A stretch of 64,000 bases of DNA from Sulfurimonas sp. HSL3-1 (lineage in GTDB: Bacteria > Campylobacterota > Campylobacteria > Campylobacterales > Sulfurimonadaceae), in assembly GCF_039645995.1 (NCBI RefSeq), contig NZ_CP147920.1, forward strand, positions 1,922,001 through 1,986,000. Reading direction: 5' to 3'. Of the stretch, positions 1-17,992 are shown piece after piece; within the stretch, counting starts at the first letter, position 1; each line of letters opens with the position of its first letter. The notes under the pieces were generated by a model. That model ran no database searches. It was not told the origin of the DNA and worked only from the letters and a program-made list of their open reading frames with translations. The position numbers and the translations under genes are program-made.

Positions 1-1034
1 CCCCCGCCGAAGGAGGCCGGCAGATCCCCGGTATAGGACTTCTGGATCGTAATGCTCTCGACGACGGAGGTCGGGAAGATATCAAGCGGGACGACCCGCT
101 TCGTCGGTTCCGGCGACGGCACGTGCAGATCATTGAGCATCACCGTCGAGTAGCGGTCCCCGAGTCCGCGGACATAGACATATTTCCCGCCGACGATCGT
201 GATACCGCTGACGCGTTTCAGGGCCGCGGCGACACTGCTGTCACCGCTTTTGGAAAACTGTTCGGAGCCCAGGACGTTCCCGACGGCGTCGCTGTTGCGC
301 TCCTCGGTGATCGCGGCGGCGACCGAACCTTCGATATGCGGCGCCAGGACGACAAACTCTTCCAGCTCCATCGCCGCGGGACTCAGCTCGACCGTGCGGC
401 TGACCATCTCTTTGGGCAGCACCGTCACCTTGACGTTCTGGGAGGAGTAGCTCGTATGGATGATGGAGAGTGTCCGGTTCCCCTCCGGCAGGTCGATGAC
501 GACATGGCCCTGCGCATCGGAGACGGCATTGATTTTGATCCCCGGCACGAAAACGCGGGCGCCCGCTACCGGTTTCTCATCTTCGGAGGAGAGCAGCGTC
601 AGTGCCACGGTCCCGTTGACCTTGACCACGTCCTGCTTCGCATCGCGCTGCGTCACATTCCCTTCCGGCGCTTCGACATCCGCAAAGAGCAGCGTTTTGT
701 CCGATTTCAGCGACAGGATGATCTGGGTCTGTTTGTCCGCGGCGATGAGAAAATTCTTCTTGACGAACGCCTGCGGCGCGCCGTCCTCCGTTGCCAGAAG
801 CTGCAGCTGGTAGTTCCCCTCCGGGAGGATCGTTCCCAGATACCCCTGGGCATCCGTCGTGAACGTCATCGTTTCAGGCTTGGCCGCTTCCGCTTCTGCC
901 GCGGAAAGGTTCATGATCACGACCTCCTGCGTCGGCAGCGGTTTGCCGTCTTTCAGAACATAGAGCGCCAGTTCGCCGCCTGCGGCGAAGAGGCTCATTG
1001 TCAGCAGTGAAACCAGAAAAAGTATACGCGTCAT
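1..1034 (-). CDS. TonB-dependent outer-membrane receptor (N-terminal part; runs off the left edge)
   Basis: Reading the minus strand from the ATG at 1034 gives about 344 residues that continue past the window edge. A signal peptide (MTRILFLVSLLTMSLFAAG) is followed by two carboxypeptidase-regulatory-like beta-sandwich modules (roughly residues 22-110 and 130-215) and then a plug domain with the typical VYVRGLGDRYS and LNDLHVPSPEP segments. The family imports scarce ligands through an outer-membrane barrel, powered by TonB. Its ATG overlaps the stop of the TPR gene by 4 bp (ATGA), so it is the last readable gene of the DUF3450-ttpC-exbB-exbD-tonB-TPR operon. The substrate cannot be read from the sequence; the Pho-type array before the operon suggests a phosphorus compound (inference). 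Confidence 0.9.
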   Translation of the reverse strand, partial: MTRILFLVSLLTMSLFAAGGELALYVLKDGKPLPTQEVVIMNLSAAEAEAAKPETMTFTTDAQGYLGTILPEGNYQLQLLATEDGAPQAFVKKNFLIAADKQTQIILSLKSDKTLLFADVEAPEGNVTQRDAKQDVVKVNGTVALTLLSSEDEKPVAGARVFVPGIKINAVSDAQGHVVIDLPEGNRTLSIIHTSYSSQNVKVTVLPKEMVSRTVELSPAAMELEEFVVLAPHIEGSVAAAITEERNSDAVGNVLGSEQFSKSGDSSVAAALKRVSGITIVGGKYVYVRGLGDRYSTVMLNDLHVPSPEPTKRVVPLDIFPTSVVESITIQKSYTGDLPASFGG

Positions 1035-2182
1035 TGCTGGCACTCCCATATATTGTTTTTGCATTTTTCCATCTTCTTGCGCAGTTCGACGGCCTTGGCG
1101 AAGAGCTCAGGCTGAGAGAGGGTCTCGAGCAGCGCTTCCGTCTGCTCGAACTCTCCCTCCATGTAGTAGGCGTACGCCAATGCGTAGCGCATGCCCTCCT
1201 CTTCCATCAGGCCGCTGCGCGCCATCGCCTTGCGGGTGACGATGATACGCTCATAGTCCCCGTACTCCAGGAAGATCGCGATGCGCTGCTTGTACTTCTC
1301 TTTCGTGTCGAGCATCTGCGTGTTCTTGAGCAGCGCCATCACGTAGTCGCGGGCGCGGCGGTACATCTCGGCCGACTCGTTGGTGTACTTCCCGTCCTCG
1401 ATGGAGGCCTCGTTAAAGAGCTCCGCCGCGGCACCGATCATCTCTTTGTCGATGTAGAGGTGCGCCAGCATCACCGTCACTTTGGCGCTGCTCGGGTAGC
1501 GCAGGTTCGCCTCTTCACCCAGTTCGATCGCCTTCTCCGTCTGGCCGCTCTGGCGCAGGGCGTTGATGAAGTTGATCAGGATCGTCTCGTTCGCCTTCGC
1601 GTTTTTCAGGTAGACCTGCGCATCATCAAGCGCCGCCTGGAAAAGCCCCAGGGAGACGAGGTAGTAGAAACGCTGCTTGTAGGCGTCCCAATAGGATGGG
1701 AAACGACTGTTCACATCCCGCAGGACCGCCAGTGCCGCATCCTTGTCGCCTTCGCGCCAGAAACACTCCGCCTTGAGGCCGAAGAGTTTCGGGTTCTGCG
1801 CCATAAGGTCGGGGACCTTGTCCAGCGCCGCGATACACCCTTTGTACTCCTTGAGCTTGAAGCTGTTCTGGGCAATGTAGAGGTAGAGCGGCTTGGACGC
1901 GTTCGTATCCTCGTTCAGTTCGATCGACTTGTAAAAGTGGACGTTGGCCTCTTTGTAGAAGCTCTTTTTCGTCTCGACCAGCCCCTTGAGCATGTAATAG
2001 CGCGGCAGGTCGAGCTCTGTGTCGTTAAGATCGACCATGTTCAGCGCATCGTTTGCACGCTCGACATGACCGTCGCGCAGCATCATTGCACCCAGTTCGA
2101 CATAGTCGACATCATCGGTTTTCGCCGCCAGCTGGACGGAGAGAGCCCCGACCAATGCCGCTATAATCCAAAAACGTTTCAT
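1031..2182 (-). CDS. Periplasmic tetratricopeptide-repeat protein of the TonB operon
   Basis: This 383-residue protein has a signal peptide (MKRFWIIAALVGALSVQLAA) followed by helical repeats with TPR character throughout (for example around residues 65-130, 190-250 and 290-370). In Vibrio TonB2 clusters a TPR gene follows tonB2, and it does so here, 12 bp after tonB. A scaffold role between TonB and the receptor is inferred from that context. Its stop overlaps the receptor start, so the two are translationally coupled. It has no catalytic motif. Confidence 0.85.
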   Translation of the reverse strand: MKRFWIIAALVGALSVQLAAKTDDVDYVELGAMMLRDGHVERANDALNMVDLNDTELDLPRYYMLKGLVETKKSFYKEANVHFYKSIELNEDTNASKPLYLYIAQNSFKLKEYKGCIAALDKVPDLMAQNPKLFGLKAECFWREGDKDAALAVLRDVNSRFPSYWDAYKQRFYYLVSLGLFQAALDDAQVYLKNAKANETILINFINALRQSGQTEKAIELGEEANLRYPSSAKVTVMLAHLYIDKEMIGAAAELFNEASIEDGKYTNESAEMYRRARDYVMALLKNTQMLDTKEKYKQRIAIFLEYGDYERIIVTRKAMARSGLMEEEGMRYALAYAYYMEGEFEQTEALLETLSQPELFAKAVELRKKMEKCKNNIWECQQ

Positions 2183-2194
2183 CGGTTCTCCTCC

Positions 2195-2833
2195 TTAATT
2201 GAGGTCGAAGCGGATCTTCTGCTTCGCCCATACTTTGACCGGCTGCCCCTGGTACTGCGCCGGCTTGAATTCCCAGGTTTTGACGGCCGCGACCGCGACG
2301 TCGTCGAAGGTGTCGGCCGGATCGCTCTCAAGCACCCTGACCTTTTCGACACGCCCCTGCTTGTCGATCAGCAGGTTCATCAGGACATACCCCGTGACGC
2401 CCATTTTGCGCGCCTTCTTCGGATACTCGATCGGCGTGCGGCGGGAGGGCTGCGGCGCCTGGTCGACCGTATCGTCGGTCATGACCATATCGTTGCCGAC
2501 ATCACCCAGCAGCGCATCGTCGCTGAGCAGATCATCGGCCTGGAACGCTTCCAGGCCCGTATCGAGGCCCGAGAGCTGCGAACTGAGATTCGGCGTCGGC
2601 GCGCTGCGCTTCGGCTTCACCTTTTTCGGCTTCGGCTTCGGTTTGGGCTTGGGCTTCGGTTTGGGCTTGGCCACCTGCTGCATATCGAACTGCGCCGAAG
2701 CCATCTTCTTCTTCGGCGGCTCCGTCCACCCCTCGTTGTTCATCTCGATCACGACGATAAAGACGAAAAAGAGGCCGAAGACGCTCCACAGGAGGGCCAG
2801 CGCGTGTTTTTTCAGCGGGGAAGCGTTGCGCAC
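2195..2833 (-). CDS. tonB: Energy transducer TonB (TonB2 type)
   Basis: TonB transmits proton-motive force from ExbB/ExbD to outer-membrane receptors. The product has one N-terminal membrane helix (about residues 10-32), a Pro/Lys spacer made of repeated KP dipeptides (about residues 55-70), and a C-terminal TonB domain containing YPKKARKMGVTGYV and WEFKPAQYQGQPV. I choose the GTG at 2833, one base after the exbD stop with an AGG-rich ribosome site, over an ATG at 2869 that would overlap exbD by 35 bp and has no suitable spacing. It sits between exbD and the TPR gene. At 212 residues it is typical of TonB2-class proteins. Confidence 0.88.
   Translation of the reverse strand: MRNASPLKKHALALLWSVFGLFFVFIVVIEMNNEGWTEPPKKKMASAQFDMQQVAKPKPKPKPKPKPKPKKVKPKRSAPTPNLSSQLSGLDTGLEAFQADDLLSDDALLGDVGNDMVMTDDTVDQAPQPSRRTPIEYPKKARKMGVTGYVLMNLLIDKQGRVEKVRVLESDPADTFDDVAVAAVKTWEFKPAQYQGQPVKVWAKQKIRFDLN
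2622..2672 (-). repeat. Short tandem DNA repeat encoding the TonB Pro-Lys spacer
   Basis: A run of near-identical 6-12 bp units (variants of CCCAAGCCCAAA on the coding strand) encodes the KPKP spacer of TonB. Such a tract could change length by slippage, and in-frame units would shorten or lengthen the periplasmic arm. Confidence 0.6.
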
Positions 2834-2834
2834 C

Positions 2835-3239
2835 TTATCCGACCTCTTTGTTCGTGGCGACCGCGACATCCTTCGCGCCGGAGAGGCGACACTGGTCGAC
2901 GACTTCGATCAGTTTCTCCACCGCGATCGTGTCATCGGTCACGACCAGGACGGACTTCTCCGTCGAGGTGCGCAGCATGTCGCGCAGTTTGCTCTGCAGC
3001 GCCCAGACCTTGATGGGCTGGTTATCGATGTAAGCCTGGGCCTGGTTGTCGAGGTAGACCTTGATCACCTTGCTCGATGCCCGCGTCGCCGAAGAGGCTC
3101 CCGGACGTTCAAGGTCGAGCTTCATGTCTTTGACAAAGGTCGTACTGACCATGAAAAAGATCAGCAGAATAAATACCATGTCGATCAGCGGCGAAATGTC
3201 GACGGCCTGATCCAGCTCTTTTTTCTGTCTAAAACGCAT
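2835..3239 (-). CDS. exbD: ExbD/TolR family proton-channel subunit
   Basis: This 134-residue ExbD has a short cytoplasmic head, one membrane helix (about residues 17-35) that carries the conserved Asp within SPLIDMVFILL, and a periplasmic domain. It forms the proton pathway with ExbB. It starts directly after the exbB stop and abuts tonB, matching the exbB-exbD-tonB order of TonB2/TtpC systems. Confidence 0.93.
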   Translation of the reverse strand: MRFRQKKELDQAVDISPLIDMVFILLIFFMVSTTFVKDMKLDLERPGASSATRASSKVIKVYLDNQAQAYIDNQPIKVWALQSKLRDMLRTSTEKSVLVVTDDTIAVEKLIEVVDQCRLSGAKDVAVATNKEVG

Positions 3240-3854
3240 TTACTTTCCTTCTTCTTCCGAACAGACGATATCTTTGATCTGTTCCAGTTCGAGTTCCATG
3301 ATCTTCGAGCGGCGGTCGATCAGACGGCCGACGACCAGACCCGGTACGGCGACGACGAGCCCCAGCTGCGTCGTGAACAGCGCCTGGGAGATCCCCCCGG
3401 CGATCCCGCCGCCCTGGCTGTAGAGCGTCATGCTCCCGAGCGAATCGAAGGTCTCGATCATCCCGGCTACCGTTCCCAGCAGACCGATCAGCGGCGAGAC
3501 CATGACGATGGTATTGACGGTTTTGCGATACTTTTTGAGCTCCTGATAGTAGGAAAAGAACGCATCCTCGATCAGCTCGCGCCCGATCGTGCCGCGGTAC
3601 CCCTCGTTGACGATCTTCAGGGCATCGACGATCGCGCCGTCGATGAGCCCCCGGGGGATTTCACGCTTCCCGGAGTCGAACTTGCGGATCAAAACCCGCA
3701 CGCTCTTTTGCGACCCGCGCTTGATGGCGTGGAAGCGGTAGCCCAGCGCGTACCACAAAACGATGACCAGCACGAACAGCGGCCACATGACAAAGCCGCC
3801 GCTCTGCATGTAGACCAAAAACTGATCGAAAAGGTTATGGAGTGCCGGTTGCAT
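3240..3854 (-). CDS. exbB: ExbB/TolQ family proton-channel protein
   Basis: This 204-residue protein has three membrane segments (about residues 17-36, 112-133 and 155-178). The MotA/TolQ/ExbB core motif SPLIGLLGTVAGMIETFDSLG lies across the second helix and a GISQAL segment precedes the third. The start overlaps the ttpC stop by one base (TAATG). It is shorter than ExbB of the classical E. coli system and corresponds to ExbB2 of TtpC clusters. Two ExbB-like genes in one operon are normal for this system type. Confidence 0.93.
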   Translation of the reverse strand: MQPALHNLFDQFLVYMQSGGFVMWPLFVLVIVLWYALGYRFHAIKRGSQKSVRVLIRKFDSGKREIPRGLIDGAIVDALKIVNEGYRGTIGRELIEDAFFSYYQELKKYRKTVNTIVMVSPLIGLLGTVAGMIETFDSLGSMTLYSQGGGIAGGISQALFTTQLGLVVAVPGLVVGRLIDRRSKIMELELEQIKDIVCSEEEGK

Positions 3855-5167
3855 TATTTCTGCTTGTTATACTCGTTGATCAGGTGCAGCGCGGACTGCT
3901 CCATGCCGTCTTTGATGCGCTCCGCCCAGCCGTTGAGCATGTTGCCCAGCAGCAGCAGCGGGATCGCCACGATCAGACCCAGTTCCGTTGTGACCAGCGC
4001 GATCGAGATCCCGCCGGAGAGCAGTTTCGGATCGCCCGTACCGAATTCGGTGATGATGTCGAAGGTTGCAATCATACCGGTCACGGTGCCCAGCAGACCC
4101 AGCAGCGGCGCGACGGCGGCGACGACCATGATGGCCGAGCCGTAACGGTCGAGACGTTCGCTCTCGTGCATGATCGCCTCGGCAACGATGTCCTCGACAT
4201 GTTCACGGTCGCGGTCGAGGTTGCGCACCGTCGCCTTCATGACGCGGGCCGCCGCCCCTTTGCGGCTTTTCAGGAAGTTCAGGGTCGCTTCGACGCCCTT
4301 GGACTGCAGCTCGACCAGCGTCTCTTTCGCTACCGGCAGCGTTTTGGACGCGGCACCGCTGAGGAAGAAGCCGCGCAGGACGACAAGCAGGAGTGCGAAC
4401 AGACCCATCACGACGATAACCCAGCCGATGATACCGCCGGATTCAATGACGTCCATAACGCCCTTGTCCGCCTTGTCCTCAACCTCTTTGGAGACGTTTT
4501 CATAGACGAAGATCTCCAGTGATGCGGGCATCTGTCCTGCAGCCAGGGCCGTCGCCGTCGCCGCGGACGCCGGTGCGTCCCACAGTTTCAGCTTGTCGCC
4601 GCCCGCCGGGACCAGTACACCGGACGCGCCTTCGGCAACGCCGTAGGTCGCGATGTTACCGACCTTGACGAGTTTGCCTTTCTGCTCCGTACCGTCTTTG
4701 AGGTAGAAGCTCCCCTCGGTGACGTTGACAGACGAGAGGTTACGGCCGAGCTTCAGCGTCTCCGCAAAGAGCTGGTTCAGTGTCGCCGGGTAATCGTTCT
4801 TGTCGATGGCAAGCTTGATGCCGTACGGTGCGAGGGAGGATTGCCCCTGCAGGGCGACGGATTCAAGCAGCGCCGTATCGTCGCTGATGTTCTCCGCATT
4901 CTGCTGTGAGCGGAAAAGCTGTTCGCCGAGGCGGTCGGATGTCTGGGTCTTGACCAGAACGTCATTCTGCAGCGACGCGATCTCTTTTTTCGCAGAAGAG
5001 ACGCGTGCCGCATCCTCTTTTTTCACCTGGGAAAGACGCTGCTGCAGCATCTCTTTCTGGGCTTTCAGGAACGCAATCTCTTTGGCATAGGCGCGCTGCA
5101 GTTCTGTTTCTGTCGCGGCAGAGAGGGAGAGGACCGCCATCATCAGGATAAGGACAATACGTTTCAT
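3854..5167 (-). CDS. ttpC: TtpC-type ExbB-like protein with periplasmic coiled-coil arm
   Basis: This 437-residue protein has a signal peptide, a coiled-coil stretch (about residues 20-80), an extended periplasmic region, a membrane helix near residues 245-268, and a C-terminal MotA/TolQ/ExbB domain (about 330-425; APLLGLLGTVTGMIATFD and GGISIALVTTELGL). TtpC is the fourth component of Vibrio TonB2 complexes, required there beside ExbB2, ExbD2 and TonB2. It is flanked by DUF3450 and exbB with one-base overlaps on both sides, the same order as in Vibrio. Confidence 0.9.
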   Translation of the reverse strand: MKRIVLILMMAVLSLSAATETELQRAYAKEIAFLKAQKEMLQQRLSQVKKEDAARVSSAKKEIASLQNDVLVKTQTSDRLGEQLFRSQQNAENISDDTALLESVALQGQSSLAPYGIKLAIDKNDYPATLNQLFAETLKLGRNLSSVNVTEGSFYLKDGTEQKGKLVKVGNIATYGVAEGASGVLVPAGGDKLKLWDAPASAATATALAAGQMPASLEIFVYENVSKEVEDKADKGVMDVIESGGIIGWVIVVMGLFALLLVVLRGFFLSGAASKTLPVAKETLVELQSKGVEATLNFLKSRKGAAARVMKATVRNLDRDREHVEDIVAEAIMHESERLDRYGSAIMVVAAVAPLLGLLGTVTGMIATFDIITEFGTGDPKLLSGGISIALVTTELGLIVAIPLLLLGNMLNGWAERIKDGMEQSALHLINEYNKQK

Positions 5168-5931
5168 TATTTCACCTCCGTCGTCGCAATGGCATTCGGC
5201 AGGGTAAAGTAGCCGGTGCGGATCTGTTTGTGCATCGCGTCAAACAGCGCGATGATCTGCTCTTGTTCCGCCTTGTTCACGGACTCTTTGTAGTACCAGC
5301 CGTTGGCGTCTTTGGCCACGTAGCCGACACGATCGTCCGGCGTCATGAAGTACATCATGACGGTGCCCAGACGTGCGATCTCCGCCAGGCGGTCTTCGCC
5401 GTCGAGCTTGATCGTCTGTTTGAAAAGGCCGTTCTCCTTGGTCATGCGCACTTCGTCCGCGTAACTGTTCCAGACCTGCGCCAGCGCCTTCTGCGGCGTG
5501 ATCAGGCCTTCGTTCATCTGTGATTCGATACGCGCGACATCGTCAAGGCGCTCCGCCGTTTTAAAAGGAAGTTCGGAAGCGATCTGCGTTTTAAGTTCGG
5601 CGATGGCGGCAACGACGACGGGCTTGATCCCCTCGCTGTTCTTGCTCGCCGCGGCGATCTGCTGACGGACCTTGGCGATCTCCTGCTCGATCTGCTTGAT
5701 CTTCAGGTTCTCGCGTCCGATCGTCGCATCGAGTTCGTTCTTTTCGATGACGAGCGAACGCATTGTCGCTTTCGTGTCATCTTTTTCTTCCTGAATCTGC
5801 GTGTTCAGTTGTTCGACTTCGGCGCGCAGCTTCATCAGCGATGCCGCCATGTTTTCTTCGGTACTTGCTGCGAGTGTTGTCGCTGCGATCAGCGAACCGG
5901 CCAGCCAGAGTTTTATCGTATTCGGTACCAT
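5167..5931 (-). CDS. DUF3450 family periplasmic coiled-coil protein, first gene of the TonB operon
   Basis: This 254-residue protein has a signal peptide (MVPNTIKLWLAGSLIAATTLAAS), a long coiled coil (about residues 27-100) and a globular C-terminal region with the DRVGYVAKD and GWYYKES segments seen in DUF3450 proteins. DUF3450 genes regularly precede ttpC in TonB2-type clusters. The molecular role is not established; a partner of TtpC is inferred from the shared coiled coils and overlapping genes. The four-position Pho-type promoter at 5960-6013 lies just upstream. Confidence 0.85.
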   Translation of the reverse strand: MVPNTIKLWLAGSLIAATTLAASTEENMAASLMKLRAEVEQLNTQIQEEKDDTKATMRSLVIEKNELDATIGRENLKIKQIEQEIAKVRQQIAAASKNSEGIKPVVVAAIAELKTQIASELPFKTAERLDDVARIESQMNEGLITPQKALAQVWNSYADEVRMTKENGLFKQTIKLDGEDRLAEIARLGTVMMYFMTPDDRVGYVAKDANGWYYKESVNKAEQEQIIALFDAMHKQIRTGYFTLPNAIATTEVK

Positions 5932-5959
5932 ACATACCCCACATAAAAAAGATAGGCGA

Positions 5960-6013
5960 AGGGTACAGGTTTTGTGTTACGCTACCGTCACCGGAAGATT
6001 ACATAACGGAAAC
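5960..6013 (-). promoter_or_regulatory. Pho-type promoter of the DUF3450-ttpC-exbB-exbD-tonB operon: four 11-bp-phased boxes
   Basis: On the minus strand GTTTC (6013-6009), GTAAT (6002-5998), GTGAC (5991-5987) and GTAAC (5980-5976) follow at exact 11-bp steps, and a -10-like TACCCT begins 15 bp after the start of the last box (5965-5960). The pentamer-N6-pentamer layout equals the published Campylobacter jejuni PhosR box (GTTTC-N6-GTTTC). Binding by a PhoB-type regulator is inferred. Confidence 0.75.
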
Positions 6014-6073: not shown

Positions 6074-7261
6074 TTACTGTTCCAGCGGATCGTTGGTGCC
6101 GGCTTTACCTTTCCAGACGTTAGCTTCGGTCACACCGAGGCATGTTGTATTGTCATCGACATTGAGATAGGCTGCGTCAATCGCTGCAAGACCTGTCGTA
6201 CCGACGTTTGTGACAAAGTAGGCGTATGCCGTATTCGCCGTCGCATCCTTGGAGTTTGTGTCAGAGTACGTCGTTGTATCTGTCAGCGCCACGCTCGTAT
6301 CTTTGAAACAGACATCGCTGGAGATATGCTTTGCACCTGTCAGGTAAGCATCCTCGCCGCGGAAGAAGACCATTGCCGTATCAACTGTCTTGTCGCTGAC
6401 GAACTTGACGTTGTCCCATTTGAAGCCGGCATCGTACTTGTTGTAGAAACCGCCGCCTTTGATGTACGCCGTATAGTTGATGATATCCGGCTGCGTCGCA
6501 TTCGTATCATCCGTCGTGATCGTGTTGTTGTCGTTACCGAACTCCATACCCGCAGAGTCGTGATCGTTCGTGCTGTCGACGTTGACCTGCTTGACCAGGA
6601 CGTTCTGGATCGTACCGCGGTAACCGAGGTCCGTGTCGACAGAGTCGTCGTGAGCGTTGTAGACATAGAGACCGTCGATGTTTACGCGGCCGCCCCAGAT
6701 CTCCAGACCGTCATCCAGACCGCCGATGATCGCGATGTTTTTCAGGATCGTACCCGAACCGACACCGGCGAGGGAGAGACCGTTGAGCTCTTTGTCTTTC
6801 TCGACTTCGTAACCGCTGTGCTTGACAGCAACATACTCCAGGTGACCGGAAGACTGTGTATTGTCACAAGCTACCGTTACACCGCCGTCACAACCGAAGG
6901 CAACTGTTTCGTCCGCTTCGTAGTGTGCAACACCGTAGTGTGTGTAAGCGTTACCGGCGAGGACAAGACCGCCCCATTCACCCGCTGCGTTATCCTGGGA
7001 GTTGCCGTCGACATCCTTCTTGGAGGTAAAGACGATCGGCTCCGCCTGCGTACCGATAGCGATCATCTGCGCACCCGCCTCGACGACCATGAAAGAGTTC
7101 GGCGTGACGCCGGCCAGTGTCGTACCTGCCGGGATTGTCAGTACTGCCGGCGCTTTGACGTTAACCTTGCCGTCGATCGCGTATTTGACCGTTTTGTCAA
7201 GGGTCATGTCGCTTGTGATCTCGCTCGGGAGCGCCGTATAGATGACCGGCGGAGTCTCCAG
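6074..7261 (-). repeat. Second copy of the 1176-bp internal duplication
   Basis: Matching landmarks are offset by exactly 1176 bp from the first copy (for example CCAGATCTCCAG at 6695 and 7871), and identity is visible at the DNA level over hundreds of bases. Near-identity in synonymous positions points to a recent duplication or ongoing gene conversion. Confidence 0.8.
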
Positions 7262-8545
7262 CGGATCCAGAGAGCCTTCAGAACCTTTCCAGATTGTCGC
7301 TTCATCGGCACCCGTACAGACCGTATCCATTGTCGTCGTGTTCGCGTCAACATAGATCGTGCCGCTGCCCGCATAAAGCTTGTTCGTCACAAAGTATGCG
7401 TAGGCAGTGTCTGCCGTCGCGTCTTTGGAGTTCAGGTTTGTATACGTGCTGTTGTCATCCAGTGTCAGCGCCGTGTCTTTGAAACAGACCGGACCGTCGA
7501 TGTGTTTTGCACCTGTCGTGTAAGCGTCCTGGCCACGGAAGTGAACCTGCGCTTCGTCCGCCGTCTTGTCGCTGATGAACTTGACGTTGTTCCATTTGAA
7601 ACCGGCGTCGTACTTGTTGTAGAAACCGCCGCCTTTGATGTACGCCGTATAGTTGATGATGTTCGGCTGTGTCGCGTTGCTGTCGTCCGTTACGATCGTG
7701 TTGTTATCGTTACCGAACTCCATACCCGCAGAGTCGTGGTCGTTCGTGCTGTCGACATTGACCTGCTGAACGAGGACGTTCTGGATCGTACCGCGGTAAC
7801 CGAGGTCGGTGTCGACAGAGTCGTCGTTGGCGTTGTAGACATAGAGACCGTCGATATTGACCGTACCACCCCAGATCTCCAGACCGTCATCCAGACCGCC
7901 GATGATCGCAATGTTTTTCAGGATCGTACCCGAACCGACACCGGCGAGGGAGAGACCGTTGAGCTCTTTGTCCTTCTCGACTTCGTAACCCGTGTGGACG
8001 ACACGGACATACTCGAGGTGACCGGAAGACTGCGTATTGTTACAAGGAACCGTGACGTCGTCACAACCGAAAGCAACCGTTTCGTCCGCTTCGTAGTGTG
8101 CGACACCGTAATGCGTGTAAGCGTTACCGGCGAGGATAAGACCGCCCCATTCACCCGCAGCGTTCTGGCTGGAGAGTCCCTGAACATATTTCTGGGAAGT
8201 AAACGTAATCGGAGCCGCTTCCGTACCGACAGCATCCAGCTGGGAACCCGGCTCGACGACCATAAAGGAAGCCGGAGCACAACCCGCTACCGTTGTACCG
8301 GCAGGAATCGTCAGAACAGCGTTGTTCGTAACGTTAACCTTGCCTTCCAAACCGTAGACTTTTGTGCTGTCCAGGGTCATATCGGCATCGATGACAGCCG
8401 GAAGGACCACGTCGATGACAGAAGCGTCACAGACGGCAGTCGTACCGCCGCCGCCACCGCCGCCGCCACCACAGCCTGTAAAAGAAAGTACTGCAGCGGC
8501 TGCTGCGCTCAGGGCAATTGTCGAAGTTCTATAAAAATTCGCCAT
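6074..8545 (-). CDS. Tandemly duplicated beta-helix-like surface lipoprotein
   Basis: This 823-residue product has a signal peptide ending in a lipobox-like FTGC, followed by a run of nine glycines. The rest is two copies of one module of about 392 residues (residues 37-430 and 429-823). The copies share long identical segments such as KDKELNGLSLAGVGSGTILK and GLDDGLEIWGG, with hydrophobic/Asn-Gly periodicity that suggests a right-handed beta-helix. The module resembles hypothetical repeat lipoproteins I cannot name. Only seven or so Cys occur per protein, mostly paired within modules. A Pho-type array (8577-8630) and the adjacent TonB operon suggest a surface role in phosphorus capture (inference). 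The GGAG at 9 bp supports the start at 8545. Confidence 0.8.
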   Translation of the reverse strand: MANFYRTSTIALSAAAAAVLSFTGCGGGGGGGGGTTAVCDASVIDVVLPAVIDADMTLDSTKVYGLEGKVNVTNNAVLTIPAGTTVAGCAPASFMVVEPGSQLDAVGTEAAPITFTSQKYVQGLSSQNAAGEWGGLILAGNAYTHYGVAHYEADETVAFGCDDVTVPCNNTQSSGHLEYVRVVHTGYEVEKDKELNGLSLAGVGSGTILKNIAIIGGLDDGLEIWGGTVNIDGLYVYNANDDSVDTDLGYRGTIQNVLVQQVNVDSTNDHDSAGMEFGNDNNTIVTDDSNATQPNIINYTAYIKGGGFYNKYDAGFKWNNVKFISDKTADEAQVHFRGQDAYTTGAKHIDGPVCFKDTALTLDDNSTYTNLNSKDATADTAYAYFVTNKLYAGSGTIYVDANTTTMDTVCTGADEATIWKGSEGSLDPLETPPVIYTALPSEITSDMTLDKTVKYAIDGKVNVKAPAVLTIPAGTTLAGVTPNSFMVVEAGAQMIAIGTQAEPIVFTSKKDVDGNSQDNAAGEWGGLVLAGNAYTHYGVAHYEADETVAFGCDGGVTVACDNTQSSGHLEYVAVKHSGYEVEKDKELNGLSLAGVGSGTILKNIAIIGGLDDGLEIWGGRVNIDGLYVYNAHDDSVDTDLGYRGTIQNVLVKQVNVDSTNDHDSAGMEFGNDNNTITTDDTNATQPDIINYTAYIKGGGFYNKYDAGFKWDNVKFVSDKTVDTAMVFFRGEDAYLTGAKHISSDVCFKDTSVALTDTTTYSDTNSKDATANTAYAYFVTNVGTTGLAAIDAAYLNVDDNTTCLGVTEANVWKGKAGTNDPLEQ
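7262..8437 (-). repeat. First copy of the 1176-bp internal duplication
   Basis: This is the N-terminal module of the lipoprotein. Boundaries are approximate and were set from the protein alignment: VCDASVIDVVLP opens this copy where LETPPVIYTALP opens the other. Confidence 0.75.
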
Positions 8546-8576: not shown

Positions 8577-8630
8577 AGTGTAGGACGCTTGTGTTACTAA
8601 CGTTGCACAGTAGTGAAACAGTAAGATTAC
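8577..8630 (-). promoter_or_regulatory. Pho-type promoter of the duplicated lipoprotein: boxes at four 11-bp phases
   Basis: On the minus strand GTAAT (8630-8626), GTTTC (8619-8615), a weak GTGCA (8608-8604) and GTAAC (8597-8593) sit at exact 11-bp steps. The -10-like TACACT (8582-8577) begins 15 bp after the start of the last box. The phasing equals that of the TonB operon promoter; the third box matches poorly. Confidence 0.7.
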
Positions 8631-8647: not shown

Positions 8648-8690
8648 GTAATTTTTGAGTAACCAAAACGTAACATGCTTTCTATACTGT
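8648..8690 (+). promoter_or_regulatory. Pho-type promoter of the orphan PhoB-like regulator: three 11-bp-phased boxes
   Basis: GTAAT (8648), GTAAC (8659) and GTAAC (8670) are spaced 11 bp apart. A -10 element follows either as TATACT at 8683 (13 bp) or as TACTGT at 8685 (15 bp, the phase used by the other promoters). The site suggests autoregulation or control by the PhoB paralogue. Confidence 0.68.
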
Positions 8691-8724: not shown

Positions 8725-9399
8725 ATGAAAGCTACTATCGCCGTCGTCGAGGATGATACGGATCTTCTTGAGCTCCTGGAGTACAGGCTGGGCAAAGAGG
8801 GCTTCGACGTTGTCGGTTTCACCAATACGAAAAACGTGAAGCAGGTGCTGACCGAGGAACCGGTCGACCTGATCATCATGGACCGTAACCTTCCCGATGT
8901 CGAGGGGAGCGAATATATCGCGATGCTCCGCTACCAGGGGCTGAAAACCCCGGTCATCTTTCTCTCGGCCAAGGACAGCAATGCCCAGGTCCAGGAGGGA
9001 TTCCTGCGGGGCGGTGACGACTATATCACCAAGCCTTTTGAAATCGACGAGCTGATCCTGCGGATCAAAGCCGTGCTGCGGCGTACCCGCGGCGAAGAGG
9101 AGGAGCAGGTCGTCACCTACCGCGACATCGAGCTGCACCTGCATTCGCGCGAAGCCTTTATCAGCGGGTTATCCGTCGAACTGACCAAACTGGAGTTCAA
9201 CCTGCTGCGTACCTTCATCGAGAACCGCACCACCGTGCTGCGGCGCGACTACCTGCTCAAAAGCGTCTGGGGGAAAAGCGACAGCTACCAGGGGCGCACG
9301 GTCAACGTCGCCATCAACCGCCTCAAAGAGAAGATCGACCCGGACAAGAGCAAAGACTACATCAAAACCGTCCGCGGCATCGGCTACATGATCCGCTAA
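8725..9399 (+). CDS. Orphan PhoB/OmpR-family response regulator
   Basis: This 224-residue regulator has a receiver domain (acidic pocket E9-D10-D11, phospho-acceptor D53 in IIMDRNLP, conserved K103) and a C-terminal winged helix (about 125-224). It is strikingly similar to the PhoB-like regulator at 13664-14338, with an identical stretch over the recognition helix (TVNVAINRLKEKIDPDKSK). No kinase gene is adjacent. It is divergent from the duplicated lipoprotein and has three Pho-type boxes before it. A duplicated PhoB that reads the same operators is the likely explanation (inference). Confidence 0.9.
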   Translation: MKATIAVVEDDTDLLELLEYRLGKEGFDVVGFTNTKNVKQVLTEEPVDLIIMDRNLPDVEGSEYIAMLRYQGLKTPVIFLSAKDSNAQVQEGFLRGGDDYITKPFEIDELILRIKAVLRRTRGEEEEQVVTYRDIELHLHSREAFISGLSVELTKLEFNLLRTFIENRTTVLRRDYLLKSVWGKSDSYQGRTVNVAINRLKEKIDPDKSKDYIKTVRGIGYMIR

Positions 9400-9631: not shown

Positions 9632-10417
9632 TCAGCCGAACTTGCCGCTGATATACTCCTGGGTCAGTTTTTCCGCCGGGGTGACGAACATCTCGTCAGT
9701 CTTGTTCAGCTCGATCAGCTCCCCAAGATACATAAAGCCCGTATAGTCGCTGACGCGCGCGGCCTGCTGCATGTTGTGCGTCACGATGATGATCGTCACG
9801 CGGTCGCGCAGCTCCATCACCAGCTTTTCGATCCCCTGGGTGGAGATGGGGTCCAGGGCCGAGGTCGGTTCGTCAAAGAGCAGGACATCCGGCTCCACGG
9901 CGATGGCTCGGGCGATACAGAGACGCTGCTGCTGGCCGCCGGAGAGCCCGTTCGCGTCATGTTTGAGACGGTCTTTCACCTCGTCCCAGATCGCGGCGTC
10001 GCGCAGCGCTTTCTCGACACGGTCGGCAAGTTCCGTTTTGTTTTTCAGTCCCTGCAGGCGCATGCCGTAGGCGATGTTGTCGAAGATGCTCATCGGGAAC
10101 GCCGTCGGCTTCTGGAAGATCATTCCGATCTTGATGCGGAGGTTAATCAGGTCCTCCTTGCTCTCGACGATATTGCGCCCTTCGAACATAATCTTGCCGT
10201 CATACGCGTTCCCCGGGTAGAGGTCGTGCATCCGGTTAAAGGAGCGCAGCAGGGTCGTCTTCCCGCATCCGGAAGGTCCGATCAGCGCCGTGACCGAATT
10301 TTTCGCGATCGGCATAGAGATGTTTTTAAGGTTCGGTGACGTGGCACCGGCATAGGTGAAACTGAAATTGTTGACTTCGATCGCCTTCTCGGACGGAATG
10401 TCGATAACGGTCGCCAT
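9632..10417 (-). CDS. pstB: Phosphate ABC transporter ATP-binding protein PstB
   Basis: PstB hydrolyses ATP to drive high-affinity phosphate import through PstC/PstA. The 261-residue product has Walker [10 protein letters not shown] (about residues 42-50), signature LSGGQQQRL, Walker [13 protein letters not shown] and the switch His in IIVTHNM. Length and motifs are standard. It is the last gene of pstC-pstA-pstB, 3 bp after pstA. Confidence 0.97.
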
Positions 10418-10420
10418 AGG

Positions 10421-11263
10421 CTATCTCCCTTTTTTCTTGAGTAGGATCAGACGGCCCAGAATGTTGAGGCCGAGAATAAACATCGAGAGGATGAACGCCG
10501 CGGCCCATCCCATCCGCTGCCAGTCCTCGTAGGGACTGGTTGCGTAGTTGAACATTGTCACCGTCAACGACGCCATCGGTTCATTGAGGTCGTAGTTGAG
10601 GAAGTTGTCGTTGAACGAGGTGAAGAGCAGCGGCGCCGTCTCTCCCCCCACGCGGGCGATCCCCAGCAGGACGCCGGTCAGCACCCCCGCCTTCGCGCCG
10701 CGGTAGACGACCTGCATGATCACCTTGTATTTCGGGGCGCCCAACGCAAAGGCCGCTTCGCGCAGGGTCGAGGGGACAAGCTGGAGCATGTCGTCGGTAG
10801 TGCGCAGGATGATCGGGATCATAATGATCGCCAGCGCGATAACGCCGGCCCATCCGCTGAAGTGCCCCATCGGCAGGACGACAATGGCGTAGACAAAGGA
10901 GCCGATAACGATGCTCGGCGCACTCATCATAATGTCGGAGATATCGCGGATGATCTCGGCGAGCTTCGACTTCTGGCCGTACTCGCTGAGGTAGGTCCCG
11001 GCCAGGATCCCCAGAGGTACCCCGACGAAGGTCGCGACGCCGACAAGGATGAGCTGGCCGATCAGCGCCTGCCGCAGCCCGCTCTCCTCGTAGCCCGGAG
11101 GTGCCCCTTCGAAGATGAAGATGTTCCAGTTGATCGCTTCGATGCCGTTGGCGACGAGGACGTAGAGGATCCAGAAGAGAAATCCTATGCCCACGAGGGC
11201 CGAAAGGCTTGAAAGCCCCAGCACGATTTTATTGATAAGCAGCCGTTTTTGAATCGCGGTCAT
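10421..11263 (-). CDS. pstA: Phosphate ABC transporter permease PstA
   Basis: This 280-residue inner-membrane permease has six predicted helices and the EAA-type loop around LREAAFALGAPKYKVIMQVV (about residues 165-185). It pairs with PstC as the phosphate channel. Its start overlaps the pstC stop by 4 bp, so the two are coupled. Length and motif are typical of PstA. Confidence 0.96.
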   Translation of the reverse strand: MTAIQKRLLINKIVLGLSSLSALVGIGFLFWILYVLVANGIEAINWNIFIFEGAPPGYEESGLRQALIGQLILVGVATFVGVPLGILAGTYLSEYGQKSKLAEIIRDISDIMMSAPSIVIGSFVYAIVVLPMGHFSGWAGVIALAIIMIPIILRTTDDMLQLVPSTLREAAFALGAPKYKVIMQVVYRGAKAGVLTGVLLGIARVGGETAPLLFTSFNDNFLNYDLNEPMASLTVTMFNYATSPYEDWQRMGWAAAFILSMFILGLNILGRLILLKKKGR

Positions 11264-12138
11264 TTTACCTTCCTTGTACGGCGCAAAAAGTAGAACTTGG
11301 CCATCGCGATGATGACGAAGCTCATCACCATCAGGATCAGCGCCAATCCGAAGAGGCTTGAGAAGTAAAGATCCGTATCCGCTTCGGTAAATTCATTGGC
11401 CAGGGTGACAGGAATCGACGTCGCGGGCGCGGTGATGTCGAGGGAGATCTTGTGCACGTTCCCCATGACGAAGGTGACGGCCATCGTCTCGCCGACAGCG
11501 CGCCCGAGGGCCAGGATCAGCGATCCGATGATCCCCGCTTTCGCGTAGGGGATGACGACGTCCTTGATGACGTCCCACTTCGTCGCGCCGAGCGCGTAAG
11601 CGGACTCTTTGAGGATGTCCGGCGTCGTGTTCATCGCGTCGCGGGTCACCGCCGCCATGAACGGCAGGATCATGATCGCAAGAATGATCCCCGCCGTCAG
11701 CATCCCGATGCCAAGACCACCGAAAATATCGCGGATAATCGGTACGAAATAGAAAAGCCCCCACATCCCGTAGATGACCGAGGGGATCGCCGCCAGCAGC
11801 TCGATGGAGACACCGACGGGGGATTTCAGTTTGGCCGGAGCGATTTCGCTCAGGAAGATCGCCACCCCGATGGCGACCGGCACGGCAAAAAGCATCGCCA
11901 GGAAGGTCGAGATCACCGAACCGGCGATCGCGGCGAACCCGCCGAACTTCTCCAGGTTCGGTGCCCATTTGTCCTGCAGGACAAAATCGAAGCCGAAGGC
12001 GGCGAACGCTTCCATCGAGTGCTGGAAAAGCACCGTAAAGATCCAGGCGACGAGCAGCAGTATGGCCACGGCAATAATGCGGGTCGCGTTTGCAAACAGT
12101 TTGTCAATCAGAAGTGTCAAACTTTCTTCTCTCTTCAT
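11260..12138 (-). CDS. pstC: Phosphate ABC transporter permease PstC
   Basis: This 292-residue permease has six helices and the EAA loop LKESAYALGATKWDVIKDVV (about residues 180-200), followed by the family motif GRAVGETMAVTFVMGN. It opens the pstCAB transcription unit, which has its own Pho-type promoter at 12171-12202. This separates it from the phoU-phoB-phoR operon upstream and from pstS, so the Pst genes sit in three transcription units. Confidence 0.96.
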   Translation of the reverse strand: MKREESLTLLIDKLFANATRIIAVAILLLVAWIFTVLFQHSMEAFAAFGFDFVLQDKWAPNLEKFGGFAAIAGSVISTFLAMLFAVPVAIGVAIFLSEIAPAKLKSPVGVSIELLAAIPSVIYGMWGLFYFVPIIRDIFGGLGIGMLTAGIILAIMILPFMAAVTRDAMNTTPDILKESAYALGATKWDVIKDVVIPYAKAGIIGSLILALGRAVGETMAVTFVMGNVHKISLDITAPATSIPVTLANEFTEADTDLYFSSLFGLALILMVMSFVIIAMAKFYFLRRTRKVK

Positions 12139-12170
12139 CGGGTTTGTAGGCCCTTAATATAGTGGGCGCA

Positions 12171-12202
12171 ATGGTAAGTTACAAATGTTACAGAATAATT
12201 AC
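12171..12202 (-). promoter_or_regulatory. Pho-type promoter of pstCAB
   Basis: On the minus strand GTAAT (12202-12198), six bases, GTAAC (12191-12187), then TACCAT (12176-12171) starting 15 bp after the start of the second box. An additional GTAAC lies at 12182-12178 out of phase. Spacing is identical to the pstS and porin promoters. Confidence 0.75.
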
Positions 12203-12233
12203 GACAGGGGTAAAAAGGCCGGCTAAAAGGCCG

Positions 12234-13670
12234 TCACCCCTCCTCGGATTCCTCTGCCGAGAGTGCGGTATCCGACGGCTTCTGCAGCAGGGGAGTGATG
12301 CCGAAACCAAAAGAGGAACCCTCTCCCTCCACACTACTGATCTGAAGCTTCGTGCCGTGCAGTGCAAGGATATAGCTGACGATGGAGAGCCCGAGCCCCA
12401 TCGAATTGTCCCAGGTATTCTTTTCGACGCGGTAGAACTTGCTGCTAATACGCTCGATCTCCTTTGCGGCGATCCCGATCCCGCGGTCGTGTACCCAGAG
12501 CATCCCTTCATGGATCTCAAGATGTACGGCCGATTCGGAGTACTTCATGGCATTGTCAAGCAGATTGGTAACGACCAGGTCGATCATCGTACGGTCCGCT
12601 TCGACGAAGGTGGATGCACAGGAGACTTCCAGCGTGCGGTCTGTGTACTTTTTCGTAATGTTGTTCGCGCACTCCGTTGCCAGTTCGCAGAGGTCAAACC
12701 GGCTGTATGAAGGGGCAAGGTCGTTGTTCTCGAGTTTGACGGAGAGCGACAGGCGGTCAAGCATCGTCGAGATCTTCTGGGCGTTTGCCGTGATCTTCTG
12801 CAAGAAGCGCTGGCGGATCCTGCCGTCTATTTCCGGGTCGTCATAGAGGGTCTCCGCATACCCGACGATCGAGGCGATCGGGTTTTTGAATTCATGGCTG
12901 ATGGCGGAGAGGATATCGTTGCGCTGCTTGTTGATCAGGCGGAGGCGTGCCGTGTACTTGCGCTTCTGACGCTCGCGCTTGGCCAGTTTTTTGACAAGGT
13001 TTTTGAGCAGCAGCGATATCTGCAGGAACTCGGTGAAGTAGCGGGGTTTCACCACCGCCTTGTAGTTCTTGTCGCTGATCTCTTCGAGATAGGCGGAGAG
13101 CTGGGCGATGTCGTAGCGGATCTTGCGGCTCATCCGTATCGCGAGGTAGACCACGACGAGCAGCAGCAGTCCCAACACGGTTGCGAGCCGGAAGAGCAGC
13201 GTATAGAAGTCGTCCAGTACCTTCTGAAGACTGACCGCAAGGCGGAGCGTATAGGGGCTGCCCTGCCAGACGACGCGCTTCGCCACATAGAGAAAGTCGA
13301 TCCCGATCGTATGGGAGAAACGGACGGCCTGGCCGTACTCGCCCTTGGCCGCCGCCATCACCTCTTCGCGGTTGGCATGGTTTTCCATCTCCTCGCGGTT
13401 CGCATCGCTCTCCGCCGCCACGGTGCCGTCGGAGGCGATCACGGTAATACGCTTGCCGATCTGCGGCGCCGTCTCCGCAATATAGCGGTCCATATCCGTG
13501 ACGTACTGCAGGGTCGACTCGATCAGTCCGATCTCCTGCTTGAGACGTACCTCGTAATCGCTGATAACGGACTCTTTGAGGGTGAAGTAACCCACAAAGG
13601 AGGCGATAATTCCCATCAGCGTGAAGATGCCGAGAAACTGGAGGATAAAGGAGTGGTGGATCTTCAGCAA
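12234..13670 (-). CDS. phoR: PhoR-like membrane sensor histidine kinase
   Basis: This 478-residue kinase has a membrane helix at about 8-29, a periplasmic sensor region (about 30-155), a second helix (about 158-180), a dimerisation domain with the phospho-accepting H259 in AISHEFKNP, and an ATPase domain with N, G1 (VHDRGIGI) and G2 (GLGLSIV) boxes. It overlaps the upstream regulator by 7 bp and belongs to phoU-phoB-phoR. Its periplasmic domain is larger than that of E. coli PhoR, which has almost none, so signal sensing may differ, as reported for the Campylobacter PhosS type. Confidence 0.9.
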   Translation of the reverse strand: MLKIHHSFILQFLGIFTLMGIIASFVGYFTLKESVISDYEVRLKQEIGLIESTLQYVTDMDRYIAETAPQIGKRITVIASDGTVAAESDANREEMENHANREEVMAAAKGEYGQAVRFSHTIGIDFLYVAKRVVWQGSPYTLRLAVSLQKVLDDFYTLLFRLATVLGLLLLVVVYLAIRMSRKIRYDIAQLSAYLEEISDKNYKAVVKPRYFTEFLQISLLLKNLVKKLAKRERQKRKYTARLRLINKQRNDILSAISHEFKNPIASIVGYAETLYDDPEIDGRIRQRFLQKITANAQKISTMLDRLSLSVKLENNDLAPSYSRFDLCELATECANNITKKYTDRTLEVSCASTFVEADRTMIDLVVTNLLDNAMKYSESAVHLEIHEGMLWVHDRGIGIAAKEIERISSKFYRVEKNTWDNSMGLGLSIVSYILALHGTKLQISSVEGEGSSFGFGITPLLQKPSDTALSAEESEEG

Positions 13671-14338
13671 AGTGTGTACCCTACTCCGCGTACCGTTTTG
13701 ATGTACTCTTTGCTTTTGTCAGGGTCGATCTTCTCTTTGAGGCGGTTGATGGCGACATTGACGGTGCGGTCCTGGTACACCTCATCGCCTCCCCAGACAT
13801 GCTCGAGGAGGTAATCCCGGTCGAGCACGACGTTCTGGTTTGAGATGAGCGTATGCAGCAGATCGAATTCGAGTTTGGTCAGCGCGATGGGCGTCCCCTC
13901 TATGGTCACCTCCCGCGAAGCGAGGTTGAGCAGGATATCCCGATAGGCGACCACTCCCTCGGAGGGTGTGCCCTTGGTCCGGCGGAGGATCGCGTTGATG
14001 CGCAGCAAAAGCTCTTTCATATTAAAAGGCTTCGTCATGTAGTCGTCCCCGCCGCGCAGGAACCCCTCTTCGATCTCGCTCTCTTTGTTCTTGGCGCTGA
14101 GGTAGATGACGGGGATCTGGACCCCCTCCTTGCGCAGTGAAGCGATAAACTCGCTCCCCTCCGCCCCGGGAAGGTTCCGGTCCATGATCATCAGATCGAC
14201 GGACTCCTCGTCGAGGACGCGGCGGACGTTCTTCGTGTTCACGAAACCGATCGTCTCGAAGCCCTCTTTTTCCAGGTTGTACTCGATGAGTTCGAGCAGA
14301 TCCTCTTCATCTTCAACGATGACTATCGTCGTATGCAT
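13664..14338 (-). CDS. phoB: PhoB/PhosR-like response regulator
   Basis: This 224-residue receiver plus winged-helix regulator carries phospho-acceptor D53 (LMIMDRNLP) and recognition segment TVNVAINRLKEK. I use the ATG at 14338, with GGGAG 11 bases upstream, rather than a GTG at 14350; this also makes it the same length as its paralogue at 8725. It lies between phoU and the kinase, the usual arrangement for the phosphate two-component system, and is the best candidate to bind the phased GTAAY boxes described in this region. Confidence 0.92.
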   Translation of the reverse strand: MHTTIVIVEDEEDLLELIEYNLEKEGFETIGFVNTKNVRRVLDEESVDLMIMDRNLPGAEGSEFIASLRKEGVQIPVIYLSAKNKESEIEEGFLRGGDDYMTKPFNMKELLLRINAILRRTKGTPSEGVVAYRDILLNLASREVTIEGTPIALTKLEFDLLHTLISNQNVVLDRDYLLEHVWGGDEVYQDRTVNVAINRLKEKIDPDKSKEYIKTVRGVGYTLC

Positions 14339-14357
14339 TGCGTTTCCCACTCCCTTG

Positions 14358-15026
14358 TCAATAGCTCTGAAGTTTTCCGCCTTTTTGTTCGAACATCAGC
14401 AGGTTGGCGACGTTCACGGCACGATCACATACCCGTTCCAACTTGCGCAGCGTTCCGAGCATACGCACATATTCGGCGGAGAGCTCGTGTTCGGAAATGA
14501 TCATTGACATGATATCTTTTTCCAGGATCGCGAAGAGGTCATCGTTCTTGCTCTCTTCGACCATGACCTTGCGGTAGGTCTCTTCGACATCGCAGTTCGC
14601 GATATCCGACACGCAGGTGTGAATACAGGCCAGGGCGTTGACGACGCTCTTGTGCAGCTGGACGATCGCGTTGTCAAACGGCTCGAGATCGCAGTCGCTC
14701 TGCAGAAGCTCACGGATGCGGCGGGCATACTTTTTCGTTCCTTCCGCGATGCGCACCAGCTCGTTCGTCATCTTGAGGTAGGCGACCAGCCCCCGCAGCT
14801 CCTGGGCTTCCGGACCGAACAGCGCAAAGGTCTTGACGATCTCGTTATCGACGGTATTGCCGTCGTTTTCGATCATCTTCAATGTGTCTGTCGCCGCTTC
14901 GAAGCCTTCTGCACTCTTGGCCGTATACGCCTCAAGGGCCATACGGTTCGCCGTGACCTCTTTTTGAATGATCTCGGCAATCATCCCCTGAATCTCGCGC
15001 AACTTTGTTTCGTAGCGTGGAAGCAT
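14358..15026 (-). CDS. phoU: Phosphate transport regulator PhoU
   Basis: This 222-residue all-helical protein has two three-helix-bundle repeats (about residues 10-100 and 115-205). PhoU links the Pst transporter to the PhoR kinase and represses the regulon when phosphate is plentiful. It is the first gene of phoU-phoB-phoR and is transcribed divergently from pstS. Metal-binding E/D motifs of PhoU repeats are only partly conserved. Confidence 0.9.
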   Translation of the reverse strand: MLPRYETKLREIQGMIAEIIQKEVTANRMALEAYTAKSAEGFEAATDTLKMIENDGNTVDNEIVKTFALFGPEAQELRGLVAYLKMTNELVRIAEGTKKYARRIRELLQSDCDLEPFDNAIVQLHKSVVNALACIHTCVSDIANCDVEETYRKVMVEESKNDDLFAILEKDIMSMIISEHELSAEYVRMLGTLRKLERVCDRAVNVANLLMFEQKGGKLQSY

Positions 15027-15189: not shown

Positions 15190-15221
15190 GTAATCATTTT
15201 GTAACCATACGATTTTACAAT
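15190..15221 (+). promoter_or_regulatory. Pho-type promoter of pstS
   Basis: GTAAT (15190-15194), GTAAC (15201-15205) at an 11-bp step, then TACAAT (15216-15221) at +15. The -10 box overlaps the in-frame upstream ATG at 15220, which rules that ATG out as the pstS start. Confidence 0.78.
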
Positions 15222-15249
15222 GCCGACATCACAACACGAAGGATCGTTT

Positions 15250-17929: not shown

Positions 17930-17961
17930 GTAACCCTTTTGTAATCTTTTGCCTCTACAAT
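17930..17961 (+). promoter_or_regulatory. Pho-type promoter of the second porin
   Basis: GTAAC (17930-17934), GTAAT (17941-17945) at an 11-bp step, then TACAAT (17956-17961) at +15. The -10 overlaps an upstream in-frame ATG at 17960, which cannot then be the translation start. Confidence 0.77.
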
Positions 17962-17992
17962 GCCGCCACCTATTTTGAGGAGTAACCCAATC

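Follow-up and report, generated by a model that had tools for sequence, protein, structure and literature searches.

TonB2/TtpC systems are discussed nearly always in connection with iron, and the question raised here is what such a system does beside the pst genes of Sulfurimonas sp. HSL3-1. The window, that is, the whole stretch analyzed, covers 64,000 nucleotides (positions 1,922,001–1,986,000 of a 2.5 Mb single-contig genome). From position 5931 to beyond its left edge, the minus strand carries the operon DUF3450–TtpC–ExbB–ExbD–TonB–TPR–TonB-dependent receptor (TBDR), and a lipoprotein gene lies upstream. The sequence data strongly support two predictions: phosphate control of both the operon and the lipoprotein gene, and the pairing of the lipoprotein with the receptor.

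The cluster has the gene order of Vibrio TonB2, as an earlier note on this DNA had claimed; in Vibrio, ttpB2 is the DUF3450 gene and comes first, and ttpD2 is the TPR gene and comes last (PMC6957404). A TtpC with a long N-terminal extension stands with separate ExbB, ExbD, and TonB proteins, and DUF3450 (TtpB) opens and TPR (TtpD) closes the energising set, which is the composition of the TonB2/TtpC type. All genes are on the minus strand and abut or overlap. Domains were called with Pfam and NCBIfam profiles; the names TtpC, ExbB, and ExbD rest on Pfam and gene order because their NCBIfam equivalog matches were below the cut-off. The operon tonB is one of five TonB_C genes in the genome. The earlier note had also described the receptor as fused to the cluster. 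The operon does have its own TBDR, but it is a separate last gene and there is no fusion. The full receptor has 1040 aa (L002:2942-6064:-), and its gene extends 2058 bp beyond the window's left edge. It has PF07715 (Plug) and a partial match to TIGR01782, and it aligns from the plug to the C-terminus with Alteromonadales TBDRs bearing PF00593 barrels (E 1e-100). The genes assigned to positions 1-6013 were confirmed, but that range omits the receptor's last two thirds and the co-regulated lipoprotein gene (6074-8545).

Upstream of DUF3450, on the minus strand, the boxes GTTTC (6013-6009), GTAAT (6002-5998), GTGAC (5991-5987), and GTAAC (5980-5976) follow each other at exact 11-bp steps, and a −10 TACCCT (5965-5960) lies 15 bp from where the last box begins (GTTTCcgttatGTAATcttccgGTGACggtagcGTAACacaaaacctgTACCCT). 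The predicted array of four boxes with the +15 spacing of pstS is exactly so in the sequence. The promoters of pstS, of two porin genes, and of an orphan regulator (RR2) have GTAAY-N6-GTAAY with TA...T 15 bp past a box start. This arrangement, 11-bp direct repeats replacing the −35 and a fixed −10 distance, is common to the pst genes and is that of a Pho regulon (PhoB/PhosR).

The region upstream of DUF3450 was scored in 44 loci, including the window, drawn from 40 stretches around TtpC genes together with named loci (6 from a named-genome scan), all in the same order of Campylobacterota; the genome's nearest named relatives are metagenome-assembled genomes labelled Sulfurimonas, Sulfurimonadaceae, and Hydrogenimonas. 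With a box definition drawn from the window's promoters, and scoring only loci with TA...T at +15, four phased boxes were present in 23 of the 44 loci, at least three in 32, and at least two in 43; these loci are mutually related and thus not 44 independent tests. A Markov shuffle control gave two boxes in 0.23% of cases and never more than two, and only one of the 255 internal operon gene starts (a TBDR start) scored for an array. The loose four-box count and its controls were used because the strict dimer definition misses the GTGAC of the window's operon. The array is kept down to 45% protein identity, and the spacer bases vary. In a search for a Fur box upstream of the operon, the best 19-mer scores equaled those of shuffled controls (11.26 v 11.28), so that Fur/iron control in the sense of Vibrio TonB2 iron uptake was not found. 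We class the module as a TonB2 machine type and not as an iron system because the Fur matches equal the shuffled controls.

The strict motif GTAAY-N6-GTAAY-N10-TANNNT has eight exact sites in the genome. Five are in the window's pst neighborhood, before RR2, pstC (12171-12202), pstS, and both porins, a clustering with a binomial p of about 1e-10. The remaining three precede a phytase-like esterase (L102:1563-3032; PF13449, 1.4e-46) and the ornithine lipid synthase OlsF (L109:1604-3031; NCBIfam match over cut-off), both predicted Pho members, and a 236-aa protein. With one mismatch allowed there were 31 sites, versus 4 for the reversed pattern. Pst and OlsF are expected content of a phosphate-starvation regulon, and the strict-motif gene set is a credible Pho regulon. 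Array conservation, this regulon context, and the lack of a Fur signal together give sequence-level support to the phosphate control that the earlier note had proposed. As separate observations, the presence of OlsF in the predicted regulon suggests membrane lipid replacement under phosphate limitation, and the 236-aa protein (L108:741-1448; G000:C1:2061317-), with an exact Pho motif upstream, has a signal-peptide-like start and no Pfam or NCBIfam match.

The lipoprotein gene is present in a single copy in the genome. Its product consists of two domains with 76% mutual identity; among relatives the number of domains varies from one to three or more. There was no Pfam match. In the first 220 residues of the structural model, which is a parallel beta-helix, the predicted local distance difference test score (pLDDT) is mostly 70-94; the model is reliable only for most of that stretch. 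Its best PDB fold matches were pectate lyases and tailspikes, which were weak (E 5e-3), and PDB sequence searches with the lipoprotein and with the receptor gave no useful match. The protein lacks the SusD-fold families (PF07980/PF14322) and has the beta-helix model instead; the receptor–lipoprotein pair may nevertheless work like SusCD/PusCD. It has the traits of the ElpS/FI family, namely a lipoprotein signal, a beta-helix of the pectate-lyase/polygalacturonase type (with weak E values), and a linked TBDR, where ElpS (CC0170) and FI were compared by description. Among 20 scorable loci (window included), namely those whose lipoprotein start was located by means of the lipobox, 18 had two or more phased boxes ahead of the gene, together with a −10 at +15. 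In a sample of 151 genomes of the family, 37 had both the lipoprotein and TtpC, five had TtpC only, two the lipoprotein only, and 107 neither. The two genes thus co-occurred in 37 of the 44 genomes having either (Fisher 2e-27).

Protein distances were compared at 24 loci with complete genes. Those of the lipoprotein and the receptor correlated at 0.86 (partial Mantel given TtpC 0.83, p 2e-4), and those of DUF3450, TtpC, ExbD, and TonB among themselves at 0.78–0.84; for the lipoprotein or the receptor versus these four, the correlation was 0.36–0.48. Within the window's genus TtpC is 92–99% identical; the receptor occurs in two types at 42% identity and the lipoprotein in two types at 33%. The TtpC tree places the genus in one clade with support 100, the receptor tree divides it, and an approximately unbiased (AU) test rejects a single-clade constraint on the genus's receptors (p 1.3e-89; quick tree, LG+G4). 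The DNA of a sister genome (G010) matches at 87–92% over the whole region except for two gaps. The first (window 8659–6022) is the lipoprotein gene with its promoter; the second (146 to −2062) is the receptor from the plug through the last codon, and homology returns at the receptor gene end (−2058). In sister genomes the six genes between lipoprotein and receptor stay about 90% identical; barrel and lipoprotein were thus replaced together. The part of the receptor ahead of the plug is better conserved (up to 92% in 50-residue blocks), and the replaced lipoprotein promoter retains phased boxes. The simplest reading is that receptor and lipoprotein must fit each other.

Within a 347-genome sample of the phylum, only two families, both of this order, yielded a TtpC gene. 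In the second of them (L132–L135) the operon and box-like arrays are again present, and three of four loci include the lipoprotein. A tblastn search of plasmids revealed the lipoprotein in Alteromonadales, Alphaproteobacteria, and Bacteroidota. In Alteromonas macleodii pBGP9 (L099, 7582-32286) the order is phoB–phoR–PstS-family protein–2-oxoglutarate (2OG) oxygenase–lipoprotein–TBDR–DUF3450–TtpC–ExbB–ExbD–TonB–TPR, with Pho boxes before the lipoprotein (GTAACaaaaatGTCACcgatctccttTACTCT) and before DUF3450 (GTAATaaaactGTCACagaaaactccTATCCT). The entire phosphate module, including phoB, phoR, and the PstS-family protein, is plasmid-borne there. Pseudoalteromonas has the module in a different order, with a four-box array ahead of the lipoprotein, and Indioceanicola has lipoprotein–TBDR–type II secretion system (T2SS) genes (LP-TBDR-gsp). 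The window's proteins matched those of these three genera with E values of 1e-70 to 1e-100 for the receptor and 1e-31 to 1e-35 (31-38% identity) for the lipoprotein.

Table 1. Positions in the window of the TonB operon, its partner lipoprotein gene, and the adjoining phosphate genes
Feature	Position	Strand	Basis
TBDR, N-terminal part in window	1..1064	-	CarboxypepD_reg-like and Plug domains
TPR protein, TtpD-like	1031..2182	-	TPR families; ttpD2 place in Vibrio order
TonB	2195..2869	-	PF03544 3.3e-22
ExbD	2835..3239	-	PF02472 7.1e-28
ExbB	3240..3854	-	PF01618 2.3e-22
TtpC-like MotA/TolQ/ExbB-family protein, long N-terminal extension	3854..5167	-	PF01618 3.7e-29, residues 305-423
DUF3450 protein, TtpB-like, operon gene 1	5167..5931	-	PF11932 3e-31
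TonB operon promoter (predicted), four Pho-type boxes and −10	5960..6013	-	Sequence; kept in 44 homologous loci
Partner lipoprotein, 823 aa, upstream of operon	6074..8545	-	Signal peptide, LSFTGC lipobox, poly-Gly
Lipoprotein promoter (predicted), GTAAT/GTTTC/GTGCA/GTAAC at 11-bp steps, −10 TACACT at +15	8577..8630	-	Sequence
Pho-type boxes of RR2, GTAAT/GTAAC/GTAAC at 11-bp steps, then TA...T	8648..8690	+	Sequence
Orphan PhoB-like response regulator RR2	8725..9399	+	Best match TIGR02154 PhoB, below cut-off
pstB, pstA, pstC, PhoR-like kinase, PhoB-like regulator RR1, phoU	9632..15026	-	NCBIfam
pstS and promoter GTAAT-N6-GTAAC-N10-TACAAT (15190-15221)	15190..16254	+	Sequence/profile

RR2 is 65% identical to the pst-linked regulator RR1 (13664-14350), has no adjacent kinase, and often adjoins the TonB module in relatives. 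Around the relatives' modules, pst, porin, and regulator genes are found again, but their order varies. The tandem porin-like genes (16536-17738 and 17960-19348) both have Pho promoters and no Pfam match; the second matches the porin ExtI weakly. A distinct 11-bp-step motif, TTAAC-N6-GTAAC or TTAAT-N6-GTAAT, occurs at L110, L119, and L124 (G000:C1:35525+, 822567+, 1589135-) and at L126 (1906287-). It precedes two other TBDR genes, an open reading frame whose heme motifs resemble those of cytochromes, and another of the genome's tonB genes, and these sites are possibly another OmpR-family regulon.

We consider it fairly probable that the module serves to import, driven by TonB, a phosphorus compound that the matched lipoprotein has captured, all within one phosphate-starvation response. 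The substrate and the direction of transport are the parts of this reading that we infer. At low phosphate, a PhoB/PhosR-type regulator (RR1 or RR2) would bind the 11-bp arrays and activate both promoters, as the conserved sequence and the regulon context suggest. The surface-anchored beta-helix lipoprotein would capture a phosphorus compound too large or too scarce for porins and deliver it to the receptor with which the lipoprotein is paired. With ExbB/ExbD as its energy source and TtpC, DUF3450, and TPR as accessories, TonB would then open the receptor plug, and the compound would reach the periplasm, where hydrolases could release phosphate for PstSCAB.

Several points weigh against this reading. 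The −10 (TACCCT) and two boxes of the window's operon are weak compared with relatives. Structure prediction of the receptor (four sequences) gave a pLDDT of 39 and was discarded. The module itself showed no gene for a phosphatase or a phosphodiesterase. In Caulobacter, what ElpS seemed to stimulate was phosphatase activity and not uptake, and the receptor CC0171 is constitutive (PMC2996285). Finally, with 11 Plug genes in the genome, the TonB2 cluster could energise unrelated receptors.

TonB-dependent secretion of PopC through Oar in Myxococcus, as it is reported, offers a model for a receptor that works as an outlet. In this reading the machine of the TonB2 type would drive the lipoprotein, or a soluble form of it, through or onto the outer membrane, to act outside, for example with secreted phosphatases. 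The matched pair and the carboxypeptidase-regulatory N-terminal domain of the receptor, which we take to be Oar-like, are consistent with this. Caulobacter ElpS reaches the surface without the T2SS and raises phosphatase activity (PMC2996285), and at low phosphate FI outranks every other Flavobacterium exoprotein in abundance (PMC8115612). However, TBDRs are mostly importers, and a matched pair is just as well explained by a binding-protein partnership of the kind of SusCD or TbpAB. The genome also encodes a GspD that passes the NCBIfam cut-off, so a T2SS could export the lipoprotein, and the Caulobacter and Indioceanicola pairs adjoin T2SS genes. We give the outlet a modest chance of being correct. 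It is quite unlikely that the machine powers lipoprotein traffic in addition to import, with the matched receptor letting its own lipoprotein through the outer membrane; such a TonB-driven, phosphate-switched surface display in Campylobacterota and Alteromonadales would account for the joint exchange.

Metal co-limitation together with Pho control is plausible, and the substrate imported under Pho control might not be a phosphorus compound but a metal that secreted phosphatases need as cofactor, or complexed metal freed during phosphate scavenging. Vibrio TonB2 clusters serve iron under Fur (PMC6957404), and an unclassified 2OG-Fe(II) oxygenase adjoins the Alteromonas module. Against this, the Fur box is not above control, the lipoprotein fold resembles, weakly, polysaccharide-acting beta-helices and is unlike metallophore binders, and comparable Flavobacterium low-phosphate loci are reported to be tightly repressed under Fe limitation; we regard metal import as distinctly improbable. 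That the array belongs to some other OmpR-family regulator with 11-bp repeats, its proximity to pst being incidental, is very improbable: a similar TTAAC-N6-GTAAC lies upstream of two other receptor genes and two PhoB-like regulators are present, but the operon boxes are of the GTAAY type with the +15 spacing of pstS, pstC, the porins, and olsF, and the Alteromonas module with such boxes adjoins phoB-phoR.

If phosphate-type promoters are true of this module throughout the order and beside the Alteromonas phoBR, active outer-membrane uptake of phosphorus would be a wider strategy in oceans and sediments. The swappable pair makes ElpS/FI, so far an orphan phosphate-starvation lipoprotein, a testable partner of one receptor, and strains that differ mainly in the receptor and lipoprotein genes are natural experiments toward the substrate.

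Among known systems, Campylobacter jejuni PhosS/PhosR is alike in being a phosphate regulation of Campylobacterota, and the PhosR repeats are 11-bp repeats of the GTTTC type; its described regulon (pst, phoX), however, is without a TonB operon. The PUMA3 operon of Pseudomonas aeruginosa is linked to two-partner secretion. PUMA3 (phdA-pdtB-exbB2D2-tonB4) also has a dedicated ExbB/ExbD/TonB under phosphate control (PhoB and sigma VreI), but it needs an extracytoplasmic function sigma factor and has no TtpC, DUF3450, or TPR and no receptor–ElpS-type pair (PMC4971064). Vibrio TonB2 (TtpB2-TtpC2-ExbB2-ExbD2-TonB2-TtpD2) shares the six-gene order and a TtpC beside separate ExbB, ExbD, and TonB (PMC6957404). 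It is regulated by Fur and iron and serves siderophores, whereas here there is no Fur signal, and there are Pho-type boxes, a dedicated last-gene receptor, and a linked lipoprotein.

Caulobacter ElpS (CC0170) is induced by phosphate starvation and is surface exposed independently of the T2SS; its genes are arranged elpS–cc0171–gsp (PMC2996285). The likeness is that of a surface-exposed phosphate-starvation lipoprotein beside a TBDR. Indioceanicola has a pair arranged likewise, and that pair is homologous to the one in the window. Unlike here, the Caulobacter pair adjoins T2SS genes, no dedicated TonB operon is reported, and CC0171 is constitutive. The Flavobacterium lipoprotein–TonB-dependent transporter (TBDT) pair is related to ElpS, and its induction by phosphate starvation is experimental (PMC8115612). 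This cluster, PUSIII (FI and TBDT), likewise has a lipoprotein next to a TBDT, the lipoprotein being induced at low phosphate and having a polygalacturonase-like fold, but the cluster belongs to Bacteroidetes, no TtpC, ExbBD, or TonB genes are reported in it, and other PUS clusters have phosphodiesterases (PMC8115612).

Phosphate control of TBDRs, and of an exbBD–tonB4 operon, is already known from Caulobacter, Flavobacterium, and P. aeruginosa PUMA3, and neither idea is new alone. No published account of a Pho-linked TonB2 module was found in the open-access literature, most subscription papers being outside that search. As far as the open-access literature shows, three things appear to be new: a complete TtpC/DUF3450/TPR-type system that is apparently dedicated to the Pho regulon, the occurrence of this system in two phyla, and a receptor and lipoprotein that are exchanged as a matched pair.

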